Shown here: one piece after another, positions 28,714 through 62,840 of the stretch
How the letters are laid out: the number at the start of each line of letters is the position of its first letter
Numbering within the stretch: position 1 is the stretch's first letter
NCBI GenBank assembly: GCA_938011315.1
Contig: CALLUG010000012.1
Span: 1 to 64,000 of the forward strand
Reading direction: 5' to 3'
DNA: 64,000 nucleotides
Origin: an uncultured Flavobacteriaceae bacterium
GTDB taxonomy: Bacteria > Bacteroidota > Bacteroidia > Flavobacteriales > Flavobacteriaceae
Program-made: the position numbers and the translations under genes
The notes under the pieces: generated by a model
The model's database searches: none
What the model was told of the DNA's origin: nothing
The model's input: only the letters and a program-made list of their open reading frames with translations

Positions 28714-28765
28714 AATTTCCCTAACCAGTAATTGGTTTTAAACATTAAAAAGGATCCCTATTTCA

Positions 28766-28818
28766 TGCCAATTATTATTTAAAATGAATTCTAAATAACT
28801 TGAAATAATAATTGGTAT
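28766..28818. repeat. Hairpin, truncated member of the MITE-like repeat family; likely bidirectional terminator
   Basis: Arms ccaattattattt (28768-28780) and aaataataattgg (28803-28815) are perfect inverted repeats. The first 40 bases match the left end of the longer repeats at 47087 and 62677 at about 33 positions. It lies between the convergent M56 and bactofilin genes, so it may serve as a shared terminator. Confidence 0.6.
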
Positions 28819-47070: not shown

Positions 47071-47086
47071 ATACCAAAAATTGCCT

Positions 47087-47242
47087 TATACCAATTGTTA
47101 TTTAAAATGAGTAATAAATAATTTGGAAGATACTGTGCTTAGATGGCATACAAAACCTAAACATAGCCTTAATTACACTTAGGTTTTATAGTGATATATA
47201 GAGACGACTCATATAACTTATTTTGAGTCATAATTGATATTA
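47087..47242. repeat. MITE-like dispersed repeat, copy 1
   Basis: This ~156-base element begins ttataccaattgttattt and ends in cataattgatatta. It shares long exact blocks with the copy at 62677-62840 (for example the first 23 bases, aaaacctaaacatag, and the last 25 bases). Its two ends form imperfect inverted repeats. It carries no ORF. It ends 25 bases before the rsmA ATG, so rsmA's promoter may be in or near it. Confidence 0.75.
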
Positions 47243-50781: not shown

Positions 50782-51110
50782 CTTCATACAATTCCTTAGT
50801 GTAATAAACCGTACAATAGCTGTATAAGATGATCCGTATTGAATTCTAGAAAACAAAAAAGTTACAAGGTTCAAAACTAAGGCAACGCTATTAAGTACTC
50901 TTCCTAAAGGGCTTGATGGCTCGCGGCAACATATATAGGCGCAATAGAAACGAACTGCATAGCTTATTTTGAGTTATAATTGGAGCTAAACTACAGCAGA
51001 ACATTACTTCCAAAATAAACGTTAACCAATGGGCTACGGTACACCAAAACACATTACAAGACTAAAACTGTAACAAAAATTAAAAAACAGATACATATAG
51101 CATAAACATT
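50782..51110. other. Intergenic region with a partial MITE-like repeat
   Basis: This 329-base spacer has no credible ORF. At 50931-50981 it carries the right-hand half of the MITE-like repeat family. I see no terminator with a clear T-run and no strong promoter match for the VOC gene downstream. Confidence 0.5.
50931..50981. repeat. MITE-like repeat, partial copy (right half)
   Basis: The bases atatata, gcaatagaaacgaa and agcttattttgag followed by tataattg match the right half of the copy ending at 62840. The left half is absent, so this is a truncated or decayed copy. Confidence 0.6.
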
Positions 51111-52528: not shown

Positions 52529-52954
52529 ATGAAAAAAAACATCCTTGTATTGTGTACAGGTAATTCTTGCAGAAGCCAAATGGCACATGGTTATTTAGAC
52601 CTGTATGCCAAAAAAACGGCTAATATATATAGCGCAGGGATAGAAACACATGGGCTAAATGCAGATGCTGTAGCTATTATGAGCCAAGATGACGTCGATA
52701 TTTCTAAACATAGCTCTAATCATATTGACGAGTATGCGGCAATAGATTTTGATTATATTATTACCGTATGCGATCATGCCAACGAAAACTGCCCATACAT
52801 ACCAAGCAAAAACGCAATCCGTTTACATCATAATTTTTTTGACCCTTCAAAAGTTATTGGCACAAACGAAGAAAAACACAAGGCTTTTGTAAAAGCTAGA
52901 GACGAAATTAAGCACTATATCACAAATTTTGTGAAAAAACACTTGGGTCGTTAA
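52529..52954 (+). CDS. arsC: Arsenate reductase, low-molecular-weight phosphatase (thioredoxin-linked) type
   Basis: The 141-residue protein has the LMW-PTP P-loop C9-TGNSC-R15 (CX5R) and the two further redox cysteines C81 and C88 (VCDHANENC). These match C10, C82 and C89 of the thioredoxin-coupled ArsC of Staphylococcus. It reduces arsenate to arsenite. Neither an arsR regulator nor an arsenite exporter is adjacent; only the DUF6428 gene is. It is the last ordinary gene before the accessory region. Confidence 0.9.
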   Translation: MKKNILVLCTGNSCRSQMAHGYLDLYAKKTANIYSAGIETHGLNADAVAIMSQDDVDISKHSSNHIDEYAAIDFDYIITVCDHANENCPYIPSKNAIRLHHNFFDPSKVIGTNEEKHKAFVKARDEIKHYITNFVKKHLGR

Positions 52955-52974
52955 GACTCTAGGTTATTATTGAC

Positions 52975-53113
52975 TTAAAACAACTGCTTCCAAAAAACGT
53001 TTTTTCTCATAACCTCTTAAAACGATTTAACAATGATAGTAATCTATGTTATTATTGCTATAAAGGATTTTAATACTTGAGGCAGCTCCATCACTATAAT
53101 AAGTAGAAAAAAG
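52975..53113 (+). repeat. Long direct repeat, copy 1 (left border of accessory region)
   Basis: This 139-base segment is closely matched by 54998-55133. Shared landmarks are ttaaaacaactgcttcc, the palindrome aaaaaacgtttttt, gatagtaatctatg, a hairpin around tattattgctata, and the final gtagaaaaaag. It carries no ORF. The two copies lie 2,023 bases apart in the same orientation and enclose the SDH-protease and the 54425 genes. Confidence 0.8.
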
Positions 53114-53206
53114 ATGAGCTGTTTAGTCAATAGTCAAAAATTTACTCGAGCCTTAAAAGCTTAACAAAACAGAATACTACCTAAAGTTCAAAGTGGAGTA
53201 ATTTTA

Positions 53207-53214
53207 TATCTTTG
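53207..53214 (+). promoter_or_regulatory. Candidate -7 box of the SDH-protease gene
   Basis: TATCTTTG matches TAnnTTTG and lies 22 bases before the ATG at 53237. The same block taattttatatctttgttg recurs at 55145-55163 after the second direct repeat, so the promoter seems to travel with the repeat. Confidence 0.5.
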
Positions 53215-53236
53215 TTGACAATAATTAAAAGAAACT

Positions 53237-54214
53237 ATGGCAAAAAAAGAAAATTCAAAACAACCTGAACCAATTATTGAATCTACAGTAGAAAAAAACT
53301 CTGAAGAAGAAGCAAAAAAACCAATGAAACAGTTTGATGTTATTAGACTAATGATTGATGCTTATAATGGAGAAGGAAACGATTCAATAATTCCGAGTTT
53401 TCATAAAGCCTTCCAATTTTATTTAAATCAAATTTTCAATCAGTCAAACTTATCGAGTAAATACCATTTAATTGTTCTTTATGATGATAGTACAATGATG
53501 AAAAGTGATGCTGATAAAATATATGATGCTGTTACAAAATTTGCTAAAGATAAGCCAATTTTAATGGTTTTATTATCTGGAGGTGGAGTTCCAGGTTCAG
53601 CATATTTAATTGGAAAATTATGCCGTGAATATTCTAATGGACAATTTATTATTGCAGTTCCAAGATACGCAAAATCAGCTGCTACTTTATTGTGTTGTGC
53701 TGCCAATGAAATTCATATGGGAAGTCTTAGCGAATTAGGACCGATAGACCCACAAATAAATGGATTACCAGCTTTAGGACTTAAAAATTCAATAGAACAT
53801 ATTGCGGAATTAGTCGCAGAAAACCCTACTTCGTCTGAAATGTTCGCTAAGTATTTACAGCTTTCTATAGAACCAATTCAAATTGGATATTATGAAAGAG
53901 TTGCTGAATCTGCAATGCAGTATGCTGAAAACCTTTTGAGTACTCACAGTGAAAACTTACCTAAAGCACCAAGTATAATAGCAAATGAATTAGTATATAA
54001 ATACAAAGACCACGGTTTTGTAATTGACAAATCAGAAGCTATAAAGATTTTAGGAGAAAAAATAATTAAAAATAATACAGCGGAATACGAATTAGGAAAT
54101 AACATTTATCAATTTTTAGAGTCATTGACAAGAGTTGCTCGCCTTTTAAATCATAGCTTCTATTTCATTGGAGGTTTAAACTCTGAACCAACATTAACAG
54201 AAAGAAGAAAATAA
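53237..54214 (+). CDS. SDH-type Clp-fold serine protease
   Basis: The 325-residue protein has a charged N-terminal extension (about 1-32) and a Clp/SppA-fold core of the serine-dehydrogenase-proteinase family: LSGGGVPGSAYLIGKLCREY (oxyanion-type Gly segment), then VPRYAKSAATLLCCAANEIHMG with S147 as the likely nucleophile, and LGPIDPQI. No signal peptide or membrane segment is seen, so it should be cytoplasmic, unlike SppA. Its target is unknown. It is the first cargo gene of the accessory region, flanked by the long direct repeats. A vertical-inheritance explanation is less likely given the surrounding cassette-like spacers. Confidence 0.8.
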   Translation: MAKKENSKQPEPIIESTVEKNSEEEAKKPMKQFDVIRLMIDAYNGEGNDSIIPSFHKAFQFYLNQIFNQSNLSSKYHLIVLYDDSTMMKSDADKIYDAVTKFAKDKPILMVLLSGGGVPGSAYLIGKLCREYSNGQFIIAVPRYAKSAATLLCCAANEIHMGSLSELGPIDPQINGLPALGLKNSIEHIAELVAENPTSSEMFAKYLQLSIEPIQIGYYERVAESAMQYAENLLSTHSENLPKAPSIIANELVYKYKDHGFVIDKSEAIKILGEKIIKNNTAEYELGNNIYQFLESLTRVARLLNHSFYFIGGLNSEPTLTERRK

Positions 54215-54217
54215 CTA

Positions 54218-54412
54218 TTGCCAATAATGGCTATAATTAATACGGGTTTCGGTGTTTAATACAAAGGTCAGTGTATTTTTATAAAGTCCGCCAAATCTTT
54301 TTGATTTGGATTTAGAACAGAAAAGATAAAATAAAAAGTTTTGGCTAATCGCTTAATCTAAAATTAAATACTAATTTGATCCCTTACTAATCATAGCCGA
54401 GACCGTTGGCAA
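54218..54412 (+). repeat. Structured intergenic element 1 (cassette spacer)
   Basis: The outer ends pair: ttgccaa (54218-54224) with ttggcaa (54406-54412), and ggctat (54229-54234) with atagcc (54393-54398). An internal perfect hairpin ccaaatc-ttttt-gatttgg lies at 54291-54309. The right end cgttggcaaacatta is directly followed by the next gene (ATG 54425). The arrangement resembles an integron attC-type folded site, although the exact attC core is not matched. Confidence 0.6.
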
Positions 54413-54424
54413 ACATTACAGAAA

Positions 54425-54841
54425 ATGAAGAAAGGAACTATAATTTTATTAATTTTAATTTCATTTAAAAGTTATTCTCAATCTTTTAATGAAGTAGAAA
54501 TAAAACGTATTAACTATTTTGGAATTGAAACGAGCTCGTACGATTTGAATAATTATAAGATTCAAACTGATTTTTCTAGAATTCTAAAACTGAATGGAAA
54601 AAAGAAGTCAAATAAAACCTTTGGAATAATTTTAGGCTCAGTTTCGGTATTGACTTCAAGTTTAGGAATCGTAGCTCTATCTACTAAAAAGGAAGGTGGA
54701 ATGGGAAAAGCTATTGTGGACACATTTGGAGGTATTTCGTTAGGAATTGGTGTGATTTCGGGAGGATTTTCTATAAAGTTATTTAATTCATCCAAAAAAA
54801 GAAAAAAAGAAAGAGACAAATTGATTGAATTTTATCAATAA
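54425..54841 (+). CDS. Small exported or membrane protein, unknown function
   Basis: The 138-residue protein has a signal peptide or anchor (about 1-19, ending YSQ), a polar segment, and two hydrophobic stretches (about 65-82 and 95-118) followed by a basic tail. I do not recognise the family. It occupies one cassette between structured spacers and ends 157 bases before the second direct repeat. A role specific to the accessory region is likely but unknown. Confidence 0.65.
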   Translation: MKKGTIILLILISFKSYSQSFNEVEIKRINYFGIETSSYDLNNYKIQTDFSRILKLNGKKKSNKTFGIILGSVSVLTSSLGIVALSTKKEGGMGKAIVDTFGGISLGIGVISGGFSIKLFNSSKKRKKERDKLIEFYQ

Positions 54842-54997
54842 ATGAATAAAAAACGATTTGCCGTGTATATTTTATTGCTTTCTTTTGCTAACTTACAAAA
54901 ACCCTCGAAGATTTTATATTCAGTAGTTATTTACTAAGCTTATACAAATCTTTGTAGGTGATTAAAATCAACCTTTGCGAATGGATGACTACTTAAT
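54842..54997 (+). repeat. Structured intergenic element 2 (5' half of the D-type spacer)
   Basis: After the stop codon the sequence reads acgatttgccgtgtata, then ttttattgct and gctaacttacaaaaaccc. This parallels the start of the spacer at 55861 (acgatttgccaacaccgtata, tttattgct, gcttacttacgaaaatcc). The 3' half is not recognisable; instead the second direct repeat begins. No ORF is supported here. Confidence 0.5.
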
Positions 54998-55133
54998 TTA
55001 AAACAACTGCTTCCAAAAAACGTTTTTTATATAGCCTCTTAAAACGATATAGCAATGATAGTAATCTATGTATTATTGCTATAAAAGATTTTAATCCTTG
55101 AGGCAGCTCATCACTACGATAGGTAGAAAAAAG
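54998..55133 (+). repeat. Long direct repeat, copy 2
   Basis: This 136-base copy matches 52975-53113 with few differences. It contains the palindrome aaaaaacgtttttt and a hairpin whose arms tatagcaatgata and tattattgctata pair at 12 of 13 positions. It is followed by the promoter-like taattttatatctttg and by gttggcaaacatt. Confidence 0.8.
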
Positions 55134-55225
55134 GGTGAAGTTAAGTAATTTTATATCTTTGTTGGCAAACATTTGGAATAAAATTTGTTAAACATAATTT
55201 AATATACATATTTAAAATAAAATAT

Positions 55226-55233
55226 TATATTTG
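55226..55233 (+). promoter_or_regulatory. Candidate -7 box of the hicBA pair
   Basis: TATATTTG matches TAnnTTTG 13 bases before the ATG at 55247. Transcripts would have a leader of only a few bases. A second candidate, TATCTTTG at 55154-55161, lies further upstream after the direct repeat. Confidence 0.45.
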
Positions 55234-55246
55234 TATTCATAACAAT

Positions 55247-55612
55247 ATGAAAAAAGAAACTCTTAATATCGACTTCAGAAAAAAGATATTTAAAGCCCAA
55301 TTAAATGGAATTGGATTTAAAGAAGGAGATTCTTATATCATTTATCTTCCAAGTCTTCAAATATCTTCTTACGGAGACACAGTAAAAGAAGCTAATAAAA
55401 TGATGAAAATTTCTCTGAAAGAGTTTTCTGAAAATTTACTTGAATTGAATGAACTTAAAGTTAATTCAATATTAAAACAGTTAGGTTGGTCTAGAACTAA
55501 ATTCTTTAATAAAAGATTAGTTCATTTGAGTGAGACAACATTTGAAGATATTAAAAAAGAATTTAATCTTCCAGATGATACTCAAGTTCAAAAAATCCCA
55601 ATAGCTGTTTAA
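55247..55612 (+). CDS. HicB-like antitoxin
   Basis: The 121-residue protein has a HicB-type partial RNase-H fold in its first 65 residues (GFKEGDSYIIYLPSLQISSYGDTVKEANKMMKISLKEF), with the typical Gly-Asp-Ser/Thr-x-x-Glu-Ala pattern. A C-terminal helical segment (about 72-121) probably serves for DNA binding or dimerisation. The HicA-like gene follows after 2 bases. The order antitoxin then toxin is the reverse of the most common hicAB order. It is probably the antitoxin and repressor of this pair. Confidence 0.72.
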   Translation: MKKETLNIDFRKKIFKAQLNGIGFKEGDSYIIYLPSLQISSYGDTVKEANKMMKISLKEFSENLLELNELKVNSILKQLGWSRTKFFNKRLVHLSETTFEDIKKEFNLPDDTQVQKIPIAV

Positions 55613-55614
55613 GA

Positions 55615-55854
55615 ATGGGAGAATACAATAATCCTGTACCAACTAAATGTTGGGAAGCTTATCTTACATTTTGCGGATGTGTTTTTGACAGACAACAAGG
55701 AACTCATCATCATTGGAAATGTCCCAATTGTTGGAGAACAGTAACTTTTTGGGGACACAAAAAAGATGTTCCGCGATTTCATATTGGTACTTGTTTGAAA
55801 ACAATGAGCAAAACTAAGACTGAATTCAATAAATGGGCGAAACAGAATTGTTAA
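55615..55854 (+). CDS. HicA-like mRNA interferase toxin with Cys-x-x-Cys insertion
   Basis: The 79-residue protein has the double-stranded-RNA-binding-like HicA layout: Gly-Thr-His-His-His at residues 29-33 (the catalytic His block, GSHH in most HicA), and a conserved VTFWGHKKDVPRFHIGTCLK segment like the HicA VPxHxxKDIPxGTLxxIL block. Unusually, C36-P-N-C39 sits directly after the catalytic block, with further cysteines at 12, 20, 22 and 60. A zinc- or redox-dependent variant is possible. Paired with the HicB-like gene upstream. Confidence 0.7.
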   Translation: MGEYNNPVPTKCWEAYLTFCGCVFDRQQGTHHHWKCPNCWRTVTFWGHKKDVPRFHIGTCLKTMSKTKTEFNKWAKQNC

Positions 55855-55860
55855 TAAAAA

Positions 55861-55990
55861 ACGATTTGCCAACACCGTATATAATTTATTGCTAGTTCTA
55901 GCTTACTTACGAAAATCCTTACGGATTTTCTATTCGATTTTTATTTGCTAAATTACGCAACAAACCATATACAATCACGTTGTAAACAAT
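55861..55990 (+). repeat. Structured intergenic element 3 (cassette spacer, D type)
   Basis: The element begins acgatttgccaacaccgtata and ends catatacaatcacgttgtaaac, so gtata/tatac and aac/gtt pair across it. Inner parts tttattgc and gcaacaaa nearly pair. A perfect central hairpin gaaaatcc-ttac-ggattttc lies at 55911-55930. The next gene begins 14 bases after it. No ORF is present. Confidence 0.65.
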
Positions 55991-56003
55991 TAAAACACAA
56001 TAA

Positions 56004-56648
56004 ATGAACAAGAACATTTTTTTGAATAAGAGATATTTTATCTCATTATTACTAGTAATTTTTTCAACTTTATTATTTAGCCAAAGTAAAAAAGCTACTG
56101 TTTTTTATAAAAACGGAGATTCAATTCAAGGCTTTATTAGTAGAATAAACTATGATCATATAAAATTCAGTAAAGAGAAAAAAGGAAAATATAAATGGCT
56201 AAAGCCTAAAGGTCTTGATAAATTAATAATCTATTCTGAAGATGGAATTCAAGAACGCCATTATGTTGAACACAAAAAGAAAAAGAATTCTAAAAAATCT
56301 AAAACACGTCTTGCAATACTAGTGCTGAAAGGAGAAGTTAATTATTATATCGAGCCTTATAATTTTGGAAGTGGATTTCGTAATGATGGAAAATCTTTTG
56401 GAATGAGTCAAAACTTTTACTACGATGAAGGTTTTAATCAAGTTAGGTTATATGTAAAAAGAGACAACGAGAAATACGTTACTTTACTTTCTACAAGTGG
56501 TCAAGTAGTTTTTTCCAAAAATTTCAAAAAAACAGCATCTGACTATTTTAAAGATTGTTTGGAATTGGTCTCCAAAATAGAATCAGGCTATTATAAAAAA
56601 GCTAATGTAACTGAAATGGTCGAATTCTATAATAAAGAATGTAAATAA
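56004..56648 (+). CDS. Exported protein of unknown function
   Basis: The 214-residue protein has a signal peptide (about 1-27, MNKNIFLNKRYFISLLLVIF then LLFSQ). A beta-rich region with a DUF-like start (KATVFYKNGDSIQGFISRINYDHIKFS), a Lys-rich stretch (about 91-100) and a helical end follow. It is probably periplasmic or surface-located. I do not recognise a named family. It sits alone between two cassette spacers. Confidence 0.65.
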   Translation: MNKNIFLNKRYFISLLLVIFSTLLFSQSKKATVFYKNGDSIQGFISRINYDHIKFSKEKKGKYKWLKPKGLDKLIIYSEDGIQERHYVEHKKKKNSKKSKTRLAILVLKGEVNYYIEPYNFGSGFRNDGKSFGMSQNFYYDEGFNQVRLYVKRDNEKYVTLLSTSGQVVFSKNFKKTASDYFKDCLELVSKIESGYYKKANVTEMVEFYNKECK

Positions 56649-56652
56649 AAAC

Positions 56653-56790
56653 TGTTTACAATAGCGTGTATAGCAAATTGCAATGAATTCCTAATCGGAG
56701 CTCATTGCAATTTGCTGTTTTCTGGTTACGGCGGAAAATCATAGTTGATTTTCCGCAACGAGCCATACACAACAACGCTGCCAATAACTT
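56653..56790 (+). repeat. Structured intergenic element 4 (cassette spacer with two perfect hairpins)
   Basis: Hairpin one has exact 15-bp arms agcaaattgcaatga (56672-56686) and tcattgcaatttgct (56702-56716). Hairpin two has exact 11-bp arms gcggaaaatca (56731-56741) and tgattttccgc (56746-56756). Outer bases agcgtgtat (56663-56671) pair with atacac-aaca-acgct (56765-56779), enclosing both hairpins. The right end gctgccaataac is followed by the next start codon. Confidence 0.7.
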
Positions 56791-56805
56791 AAAAAACCCA
56801 ACCAA

Positions 56806-57410
56806 ATGAAAAAATACTTCTGATTTTATTATTGTTTACAATCAAATCTCAATTATATAGCCAGGAATATATTCCAGCAGACAATTTCAAATTTAGATTT
56901 ATAAAAGCAAAAAAAGCTGTTGGAGGTAATTATTATTACACAATTAAAACGCCAAAAGGAGTTAGAAAAACACAAGTTAGATTTAAAATGCAATCCTTAT
57001 CAGGAAAGAAAGATGATTTTGATCCAAATAAATTTTATCTAGTAACTGATAATTATAAATGGAGGGTAAGACCTATTGATGTAAGACATAATTATGCTGC
57101 TGGTTGGATATTTATCGGATTTGAATATTTAGTTGACTTTCAGCCCACCGACAAAAAACTAAAAGAATGGTTATCTTATAAGCCAGAAGTTAAGAATACT
57201 TTTGACGATTATAAAATTGATGGATACAAAGACATTCGTACAAATATAAATTTTGGAACAAAACGAAAACCAAAAATGTCTTCCCCTTATTTAAATCACA
57301 GGGAATTAAAATCTTGTAAAATTGACTTATATTTTTCGCTACCAAAAAATTTAAAAAAATTTAGAATTTATTACGGTAAAACTTTGATTGCCGATACAGA
57401 AGTAAAATAA
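56806..57410 (+). pseudogene. Exported-protein gene with frameshift in an A6 tract after the ATG
   Basis: The ATG at 56806 is followed by six A and then a TGA five codons later. Adding one A would give MKKILLILLLFTIKSQ, a standard signal peptide ending in LYSQ, joined in frame to the 192-residue frame opening with TTG at 56832. The downstream domain (YIPADNFKFRFIKAKKAVGGNYYY) is intact to 57410. So this is either a slipped-strand off state, a recent mutation, or a sequencing error. Translation from TTG 56832 would give a protein without signal peptide. The family is not recognised. Confidence 0.7.
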
Positions 57411-57507
57411 ACTATGGGAAAGGAAAGTGTATAATTCATTACTAACATCTCCTATTTACGAAAGTGGACTACCCAATAAATTTGGTGCAAATTTGACACA
57501 TATTTAT

Positions 57508-57720
57508 TCATGTTTCAAGTTGTTTTTCAGTAGGAGTTTTAAAGCCCAAAGCGGAATGTAATTTTTCGTAATTATACCATTTAATATACTCTTTAATAAT
57601 ATTATAAGTGTTTAAAAATGAGTGAAAATTATATCTGTTTGCACATTCATATTTTAGGGTTTTAAAAAAAAGACTCAACTATTTCAGAAATTCCAATATA
57701 GAAGACATTTGCTGCCGCCA
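57508..57720 (-). pseudogene. IS3-family transposase (OrfB) C-terminal remnant
   Basis: On the minus strand, bases 57660-57508 read as TLKYECANRYNFHSFLNTYN, then IIKEYIKWYNYEKLHSALGF and KTPTEKQLET plus stop: the C-terminal end of an IS3-type rve integrase with its Tyr-Asn-x-Glu-(K/R)-Leu-His-Ser-Ala-Leu-Gly block. Upstream, IGISEIVESFF joins it only after removing one T from a run of eight, so the remnant is also frameshifted. The rest of the element is missing. Confidence 0.75.
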
Positions 57721-57838
57721 ATTTCTGATAAGAAAAAATAAAACGGCAGAAAACCGTGTATAATATCTTTTTTAATAAAAAAACAAGCCCATAAGCTATA
57801 GTTTCTATTGGCACAATGAAAGGTTTGATGCGTTAATT

Positions 57839-62400: not shown

Positions 62401-62676
62401 ACAAAAAAACCATCAGAGACGAATGCCTTGCCTAAATTTTTTTTGCCTCTAACCAAAATCGCTATACATTTTGTTTGGCAAATACCTCTATTTTGTAATA
62501 ATAATGATGTAAACGTAATATATATTGCACGCTTACAATAAGCTATGCCTTAACTAGAAACAAGTTAATAACTTTTATATATTTAGCCTTATAAAACCCT
62601 AGTAGAAAAAGGCTTTTTATTTAATTTCGTTTTTTAAGCAAAGACATCATTTACACTAATTAATAGTTACTAGCTT
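62401..62676. other. Intergenic region between the RND gene and the MITE-like repeat
   Basis: No supported ORF, RNA gene or clear terminator is seen in this AT-rich stretch. It leads into the MITE-like repeat at 62677 that reaches to 16 bases before the thyA start. Confidence 0.5.
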
Positions 62677-62840
62677 ATACCAATTGTTATTTAAAATAAG
62701 TTGCAAATAATTTGGAATATAGTGTGTTTAGATGACATAGAAAACCTAAACATAGTCTTAGTTGCGCTTCGATTTTATAGCGATATATAGACGCAATAGA
62801 AACGAATGATATAGCTTATTTTGAGTCATAATTGATATTA
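62677..62840. repeat. MITE-like dispersed repeat, copy 2
   Basis: This 164-base copy starts tataccaattgttattt and ends gtcataattgatatta. Its first 27 bases, read from 62676, and the reverse complement of its last 27 bases agree at 20 positions, so it has imperfect terminal inverted repeats. It shares its ends and middle with 47087-47242 and its right half with 50931-50981. It has no coding capacity. It ends just before thyA. Confidence 0.78.

Follow-up and report, generated by a model that had tools for sequence, protein, structure and literature searches.

What do two direct repeats do on either side of a protease gene in the genome of an uncultured Flavobacteriaceae bacterium? The repeats lie at 52975-53113 and 54998-55133 of a 64,000-nucleotide (nt) stretch, hereafter the window (assembly GCA_938011315.1, contig CALLUG010000012.1, positions 1 to 64,000, forward strand; C12 below). 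A sequence-only reading of the window had proposed that recombination between them would delete or amplify exactly the protease gene and the gene at 54425, and that repeat and promoter together might provide expression to inserted cargo. The analysis reported here indicates that the repeats are not the key feature of this block and that a cassette array is. Judged from sequence, it is near certain that the window carries such an array and that it would follow an integron-like logic; that its cassettes are mobile is what we infer.

The region from 53.2 to 57.4 kb is a head-to-tail row of cassettes, each composed of an open reading frame (ORF) followed by an attC-like element and each starting at G^TT. 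The stretch that holds it is bounded by the genes for LMWPc (52529) and AcrB (59287), and the cargo there is accessory, namely an SDH-type protease, HicA with a HicB-like partner, and several ORFs without a family. The cassette-array explanation came from elements of ~100-200 bp between the window ORFs and not from the repeats. For one of these elements, the genome contains 18 matches at E 0.1, several of them near contig ends, and 14 at E 0.001, itself included. The elements have the attC-like architecture R''-L''-loop-L'-R', with complementarity found for both R''/R' and L''/L', and the cassette boundaries place the putative crossover at G^TT.

An iterated profile search through 466 kb of loci yielded further elements; the loci were the window, 16 stretches of its own genome, 20 stretches of relatives around the recombinase described below or its sites, and eight LMWPc loci. 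The search gave 127 hits at E 1, of which 95 passed a length and E 0.05 filter and 91 were kept after four without a core triplet were dropped. When only neighbors 150-1900 bp apart were paired, these 91 sites defined 61 cassettes. The ten bases that open a cassette are the reverse complement of the last ten bases of the same cassette: 53 of the 61 cassettes match at 6-7 of the seven variable positions. This own-end match averages 6.21 of 7, whereas the two flanks of a single genomic site agree at 2.75 of 7 positions, and the own-end total of 379 compares with a maximum of 207 in 10,000 permutations. Six of the eight exceptions are gaps of at least 1.4 kb, in which an element was probably missed. 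Own-end complementarity is the signature expected if a closed circle is cut at G^TT and its two ends form one hairpin.

For the inner stem, 50 of the 82 elements that satisfied the length limit were selected and aligned, and the structure was placed on the alignment by eye. There, 90.3% of L''/L' cells were paired, compared with 73.2% after shuffling and 24.5-39.2% after sliding, and covariation was 0.397 versus 0.111 after shuffling. Over all 91 sites, L''/L' pairing scored 552, versus a maximum of 490 in 1,000 permutations. A covariance model of the attC-like elements, R1, found four matches in the window, all on the + strand and between 54.2 and 56.8 kb, with the next best at E 0.22. A generic motif scan (R matching at 9 of 10 positions plus an L stem) was enriched behind recombinases (176 versus 40 in shuffled sequence) and stood at or below the shuffled level in two control sets (10 versus 14 and 9 versus 16); in Persicobacter and Chryseobacterium plasmid stretches it gave 1 versus 4. 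The scan was set aside as too noisy for the window (27 versus 18) and for the own-genome loci (46 versus 40).

Which enzyme would act on these sites? All four tyrosine-recombinase genes of the genome are on contigs other than C12. One of them, on contig C49, is followed by one attC-like element before the contig ends, and relatives of its product at E 1e-60 or better were found in 47 of 149 genomes. Acinetobacter plasmids (H2, H4, and H5) carry a recombinase that shares 52-53% identity with the C49 protein across 61-70% of its length. Across 20 recombinase loci, own genome included, all 77 elements detected at E 0.01 were downstream on the recombinase strand and none on the other; the stretches were fetched mostly downstream, so that element position is biased by design and strand is not. 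At least one element was present at 16 of the 20 loci. In 14 of 19 loci, a palindrome between recombinase and array is centered 16-17 nt before G^TT; in 11 of the 19, none of 300 shuffles was as good, and in the other eight more shuffles were. TAnnTTTG lay at most 60 nt before the GTT chosen by script in five of the 19.

Approached from the other side, ten genomes were screened for the heads of large arrays, in 12 stretches (one, from G123, already in the set). A recombinase of the same broad group stands ahead, on the array strand, in six of them; of the other six, one stretch stopped short of the head, two met a contig edge, and three showed no recombinase past the head by the references used. 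We also observed that in the large arrays L183, L186, L190, and L191 the recombinase at the head shares 36-45% identity with the closest reference used, and that in L193 it is the L105 gene itself, so that sites of one kind seem to be used by several lineages of recombinase. By position, the case for assigning the recombinase to the arrays is strong.

A tree of 46 recombinases separates the C49 group from the genome's own Xer-like proteins (L051 and L053) and from XerD (L176) with support of 100/100, and also from two IntI proteins, which pair at 100/100; deeper nodes have weak support, and a program warning points to the meeting of long branches. These two, IntI2 (L173) and an IntI of Bacteroidia (L161), carry an insertion between the beta-strand lysine and HxxRH that occurs in none of 21 rows of the C49 group, one of which (L099) is cut off at that place; the remaining rows of the tree have nothing of that size there either. 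A first candidate for a substitute for the IntI-specific domain is an N-terminal extension of ~60 residues in the recombinase. The C49 protein scores 183 bits against the integron-integrase model TIGR02249, below its cut-off of 265, and its nearest NCBIfam match is the XerA-like NF040815, at 220.9 bits over a cut-off of 220. The partial conservation described in the literature calls for caution in labelling the C49 group non-IntI. The integron-integrase cut-off was exceeded in one of 295 genomes of the class (G593, protein L161); the stretch fetched there holds one 10-of-10 own-end match, and a classical integron may occur in the class too. As a separate observation, IntI (L173/L161) may nest within diverse Bacteroidia recombinases without the IntI insertion (L105-L109, L166, and L167); such nesting, if real, would bear on the origin of integrons, at weak support and with long branches meeting.

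The system resembles integrons, including chromosomal super-integrons and clusters of attC sites lacking integron-integrases (CALIN), in its one-gene cassettes lined up head-to-tail in one orientation and in large arrays. It also shares with them attC-like R''-L''-L'-R' sites with G^TT, a recombinase near the entry end, and accessory cargo that includes a toxin-antitoxin pair. Unlike integrons, it has a recombinase that lacks the IntI-specific insertion and falls below the integron-integrase cut-off. The canonical integron R box is GTTRRRY/RYYYAAC; here the R box is 10 nt long and cassette specific, with GTTRRRY in one of 91 R' boxes and five of 91 R'' boxes fitting the consensus. The putative entry site here is mostly a palindrome, and recombinase and array share one reading direction. 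In the inverted-orientation chromosomal integrons of Treponema, integrase and array also run in one direction, but those integrons have a true IntI. The array on C12 might be likened to a CALIN in having no recombinase beside it, but its sites are not canonical attC sites. To XerA, XerC, and XerD, the recombinase is linked by its nearest NCBIfam model; unlike them, C49-type genes head cassette arrays, and they occupy a tree branch separate from the genome's Xer-like proteins, with the caveat of long branches meeting. Since these recombinases lack the IntI-specific insertion, the system is formally not an integron, though it would work like one.

Excerpts of PMC9668308 describe the IntI-specific additional domain as defining IntI and the IntegronFinder profile as relying on it; the title of a 2001 paper, as cited there, calls this domain necessary for activity. 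In excerpts of two other sources, In0 and a Salinibacter integron are placed in Bacteroidetes (PMC9024848) and Bacteroidota is listed among the phyla with integrons (PMC8618304). Among the literature matches listed, we found no description of such integrons or cassette arrays in Flavobacteriia; most subscription papers and all bioRxiv preprints were outside the scope of this search, and an earlier description is possible.

How widespread are the sites? R1 matched 131 of 198 relatives at E 0.01, including 107 of 120 family members and 24 genomes from other families of the order (up to 16 sites scored per genome; family split counted from the result rows). Of a draw of 385 genomes across the phylum, 86 matched at E 0.001 with up to eight sites scored per genome. 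They comprised 25 of the 41 family members drawn, 11 genomes from the rest of the class, and 50 from other classes, the last often with one to three sites. Within the family, the large genus g151 had matches in seven of 23 genomes. With matches reaching E 1e-28, chance is implausible for the bulk, and single weak matches may be due to chance. The attC-like sites are thus commonest in this family, taken to be Flavobacteriaceae, which the promoter pattern and the plasmids named next fit, yet not confined to it. Among 72,556 plasmid records, the attC-like element at 55864-55988 of the window was found only on two Tenacibaculum finnmarkense plasmids, at 75.7-80.7% identity; another attC-like element had no plasmid match. 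Six places on those two plasmids (H41 and H42) are similar to the window element, an observation that puts elements of this kind on plasmids too.

In the mechanism that we propose, the recombinase would excise cassettes as circles, with attC folding into a hairpin, and would then insert them again, with either another attC site or the palindrome-GTT site as the target. For the array in the window, which lacks a neighboring recombinase, the C49 enzyme would act in trans.

Read as cassettes, all on the + strand, the DNA between the two repeats resolves into two units. Cassette A (53215-54405) holds the SDH-type serine protease gene (53237-54214, Pfam PF01972) and a long-loop attC-like site at 54216-54414, which R1 matches at E 1.6e-5 although it was outside the training set; the cassette starts GTTGACAATA, and its own end, TATTGCCAAT at 54216, agrees at 6/7 variable positions. 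Cassette B (54406-54951) holds an ORF of unknown function at 54425-54841 and an attC-like site at 54856-54960 in which both core triplets have decayed (R1 at 54861-54950, E 7.8e-6, likewise outside the training set). It starts GTTGGCAAAC and ends ATTTGCC without an AAC core (6/7), and 77 nt of its attC-like site are 74% identical to 55875-55951. The DNA between the repeats is cassette cargo, and to this extent the sequence-only reading is supported. The recombination unit that it proposed, exactly the protease gene and the 54425 gene, is not supported: these are two separate cassettes that have their own attC-like sites and whose ends are defined by G^TT junctions and not by the repeats, with boundaries read by eye. 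Recombination between the repeats, which are in the same orientation and share an exact run of 31 bp, could excise or amplify a 2-kb protease unit; this is a possible but unsupported event, and we regard it as very unlikely to explain the locus. Besides the two-cassette composition of the unit, no genome with one repeat and no 2-kb unit was found among the family genomes searched, and the full-length repeat was absent from 396 other family genomes.

The array continues beyond the second repeat with cassette D (55162-55979), which carries a toxin-antitoxin pair consisting of a HicB-like gene (55247-55612) and HicA (55615-55854), with a TAnnTTTG box of its own at 55226. HicA is PF07927 at 27.9 bits, just over the cut-off of 27, and the HicB-like gene, which has no Pfam match, is named by position. 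Cassette D starts GTTGGCAAAC and has its own end ATTTGCCAAC at 55864 (6/7); because cassettes B and D share the same first ten bases, the end of D fits both starts. Its attC-like site (55864-55988) is matched by R1 at E 6.8e-24 and was in the training set, as was that of cassette E (56653-56786, E 2.6e-15). Cassette E (55980-56777, ORF of unknown function at 56004-56648) starts GTTGTAAACA and has its own end TGTTTACAAT at 56653, a 7/7 match in the automatic own-end test. Cassette F (56778-57480, ORF 56832-57410) has a decayed end, read by eye at ~5/7, where R1 gives no match, and is followed by an apparent insertion sequence (IS) remnant. By eye, 57480-57750 resembles a remnant of an IS3-type transposase that interrupts the right part of the array behind this end.

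Where do the repeats fit in this row? The pair itself is real: the copies are 91% identical over 139 columns (BLASTN, E 3.2e-48), or at 130 of 144 columns in a slightly longer alignment, and start 2,023 bp apart, so that "near-identical" was slightly generous. The palindrome AAAAAACGTTTTTT is indeed common to both (at 52992 and 55015), and the same promoter-like block, TAATTTTATATCTTTGTTG, does follow each, at 53199 and 55146. The distance from repeat to block is 85 nt for the first copy and 12 nt for the second; when a shared stretch from 53191 and 55138 is counted, it shrinks to 77 and 4 nt, close to the 80 and 3 first given. Each repeat stands directly before a cassette start. The block at 53199-53217 ends in junction J1 (G53214^TT) before cassette A, and that at 55146-55164 ends in junction J4 (G55161^TT) before cassette D. 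What should be found directly before a cassette start is an entry site, the attC of another cassette, or a stray site.

On the sequence evidence, the repeats are probably two diverged copies of one ORF-less cassette, Z1 and Z2, whose 3' end would carry a promoter-like box. Z1 would span 52957-53214 and comprise repeat copy 1 and an attC-like 3' end, proposed from its homology to Z2. Z2 would span 54952-55161, between two cassette junctions of which the left one is decayed; with copy 2 behind the decayed attC-like end of cassette B, these 210 bp are a cassette by position. The longest sense ORF is 16 aa in both. The repeat would thus represent the body of the Z cassette with the 5' arm of its attC, and the shared block 'taattttatatctttgttg' the 3' arm (L' TTTTATA, spacer TCTTT, and G^TT). 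Because attC loops vary in length, the unequal repeat-to-block gaps of the two copies would follow. The candidate L''/L' stem forms 6/7 pairs, with spacers of 3 nt in the 5' arm and 5 nt in the 3' arm, within the range of other sites (2-3 and 4-6 in most). Outside the repeat, Z1 starts CTCTAGGTTATTA right behind the LMWPc stop codon, like the start of Z2; an equally good match arose in 22 of 5000 shuffles and at 52 of 9129 positions in the window. ORF-less cassettes are present elsewhere too (2 of 53).

The 3' arm spells TATCTTTG, which fits TAnnTTTG, the -7 promoter pattern of Bacteroidetes, and Z would accordingly act as a mobile promoter for the cassette behind it. The cargo driven in this way would be the protease after Z1 and the HicBA pair after Z2. 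The box lies at the junction in both copies. Elsewhere, TAnnTTTG is present in the 3' arm of a single site among the 91 other attC-like ones, and 1.8% of the 26-mers in the window contain it; no -33 element was evident by eye at the block. The earlier idea that repeat and promoter form an expression unit for cargo is thus upheld in that a promoter-like box abuts the cassette start, while the view that the repeats move the cargo is not supported.

The position of the copies would also suit a duplicated array leader, that is, an attI/Pc-like entry site with an outward promoter that was copied once by segmental duplication and heads two short arrays, A-B and D-E-F. Both copies stand directly before a cassette start with the box at the junction, and copy 1, beside the LMWPc gene, occupies the array's left edge. 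We nonetheless consider a leader unlikely: of 19 leaders behind recombinases, 14 have a palindrome 16-17 nt ahead of G^TT, but neither copy has one, and none precedes J1 or J4; a profile of the repeat found nothing in the contig with the genome's own recombinase (L055 among the loci searched); and copy 2 lies within the array, where it follows the attC-like site of cassette B.

Could the repeats instead be a small transposable element, similar to a miniature inverted-repeat transposable element (MITE) or of another kind, or a regulatory RNA that happened to be copied close to cassettes? Their size of ~140 bp, imperfect inverted ends (ACTGCTTC/GAGGCAGC, by eye), and an internal hairpin would be in keeping with this. 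The 2.25-Mb assembly, however, holds only two copies, both in one array, the remaining listed matches being short and weak, versus 42 matches for a dispersed repeat of the same genome, and no Rfam family reached its gathering score in the window. The "strong hairpin" ascribed to both repeats also proved not to be a property of the whole element, as copy 1 folds no better than shuffles (z of 0.06 as DNA and -0.05 as RNA) and copy 2 somewhat better (-1.92 and -2.17). Such an origin is most improbable. The dispersed repeat just mentioned is an intergenic element of ~150 bp at 47085-47236 and 62674-62834, partial at 50931-50982 and 28765-28805; its matches, excluding itself and one 27-bp match, are 74-89% identical, and it shows no sign of a link to cassette arrays.

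Further copies of the repeat and an excised state were both looked for. The 396 other family genomes gave eight weak matches to the repeat of 26-51 bp, none like a repeat copy among those inspected, and 98 other relatives gave two of 32-34 bp and no full copy. Plasmids and phages had no match, and an exact 20-mer of the repeat had none in viral contigs. A single 20-mer match in genome contigs was dismissed as unrelated because similarity stopped shortly beyond the 20-mer, and two weak repeat-profile matches, in a coding stretch on C42 and in a Gammaproteobacteria metagenome-assembled genome, were rejected by alignment. No tRNA that could serve as an attachment site lies within the window. At E 1e-15, the protease occurs in one of 388 family genomes, the source genome, and no homologue was found as a cassette elsewhere among them. 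The left chromosomal flank is the LMWPc-family gene (arsenate-reductase-like, 52529-52954, + strand, Pfam PF01451). In relatives it stands beside the same DUF6428 gene in seven of eight loci, with no gene of the window array and no repeat after it in the stretch read. The same eight stretches contained no AcrB match, so that the flanks are not syntenic and an empty site of the window array cannot be defined; one of these control loci (L155) holds one attC-like element ~6 kb away.

Several points weigh against this account. In the window, only cassette E went through the automatic own-end test, the others (A, B, D, and F) being judged by eye; the profiles and R1 were built in part from loci to which they were later applied. 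The palindrome rule fails in five of 19 loci, and four of 20 recombinase loci have no element, three of them meeting a contig edge within 1 kb. Three arrays (L184, L185, and L194) were read 7-14 kb or more past the head and showed no recombinase by the references used; arrays without a neighboring recombinase, like that of the window, are therefore not rare. With regard to Z, the own-end match of Z2 was equalled by 19 of 300 shuffles and is suggestive only, a rival L'' candidate at 55080, in AT-rich DNA, pairs better with the block (7/7), and the left boundary of Z1 is inferred. No Z homologue was present in any other array, so that Z has not been seen to move, and no recombination, loss, gain, or circle was observed.

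It is an even call whether these arrays represent a widespread, undescribed class of integrons, in this family (taken to be Flavobacteriaceae) and some others of the phylum, that would use folded attC sites without the IntI domain and have long arrays and gene-less promoter cassettes. The IntI-specific domain is generally regarded as indispensable for handling folded attC sites. Because IntegronFinder keys on the IntI-specific profile, which is absent here, a gene-capture system with sites in 107 of 120 family genomes of one draw could be overlooked. If the interpretation is true, a second recombinase solution to the recombination of folded attC sites would exist, and the role of the IntI-specific domain would become directly testable. 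For the window, an unexplained repeat pair has turned into the concrete hypothesis of a mobile gene-less promoter cassette, and such cassettes would switch on whichever cassette arrives behind them. For these bacteria, the origin of many of their accessory genes would be explained.

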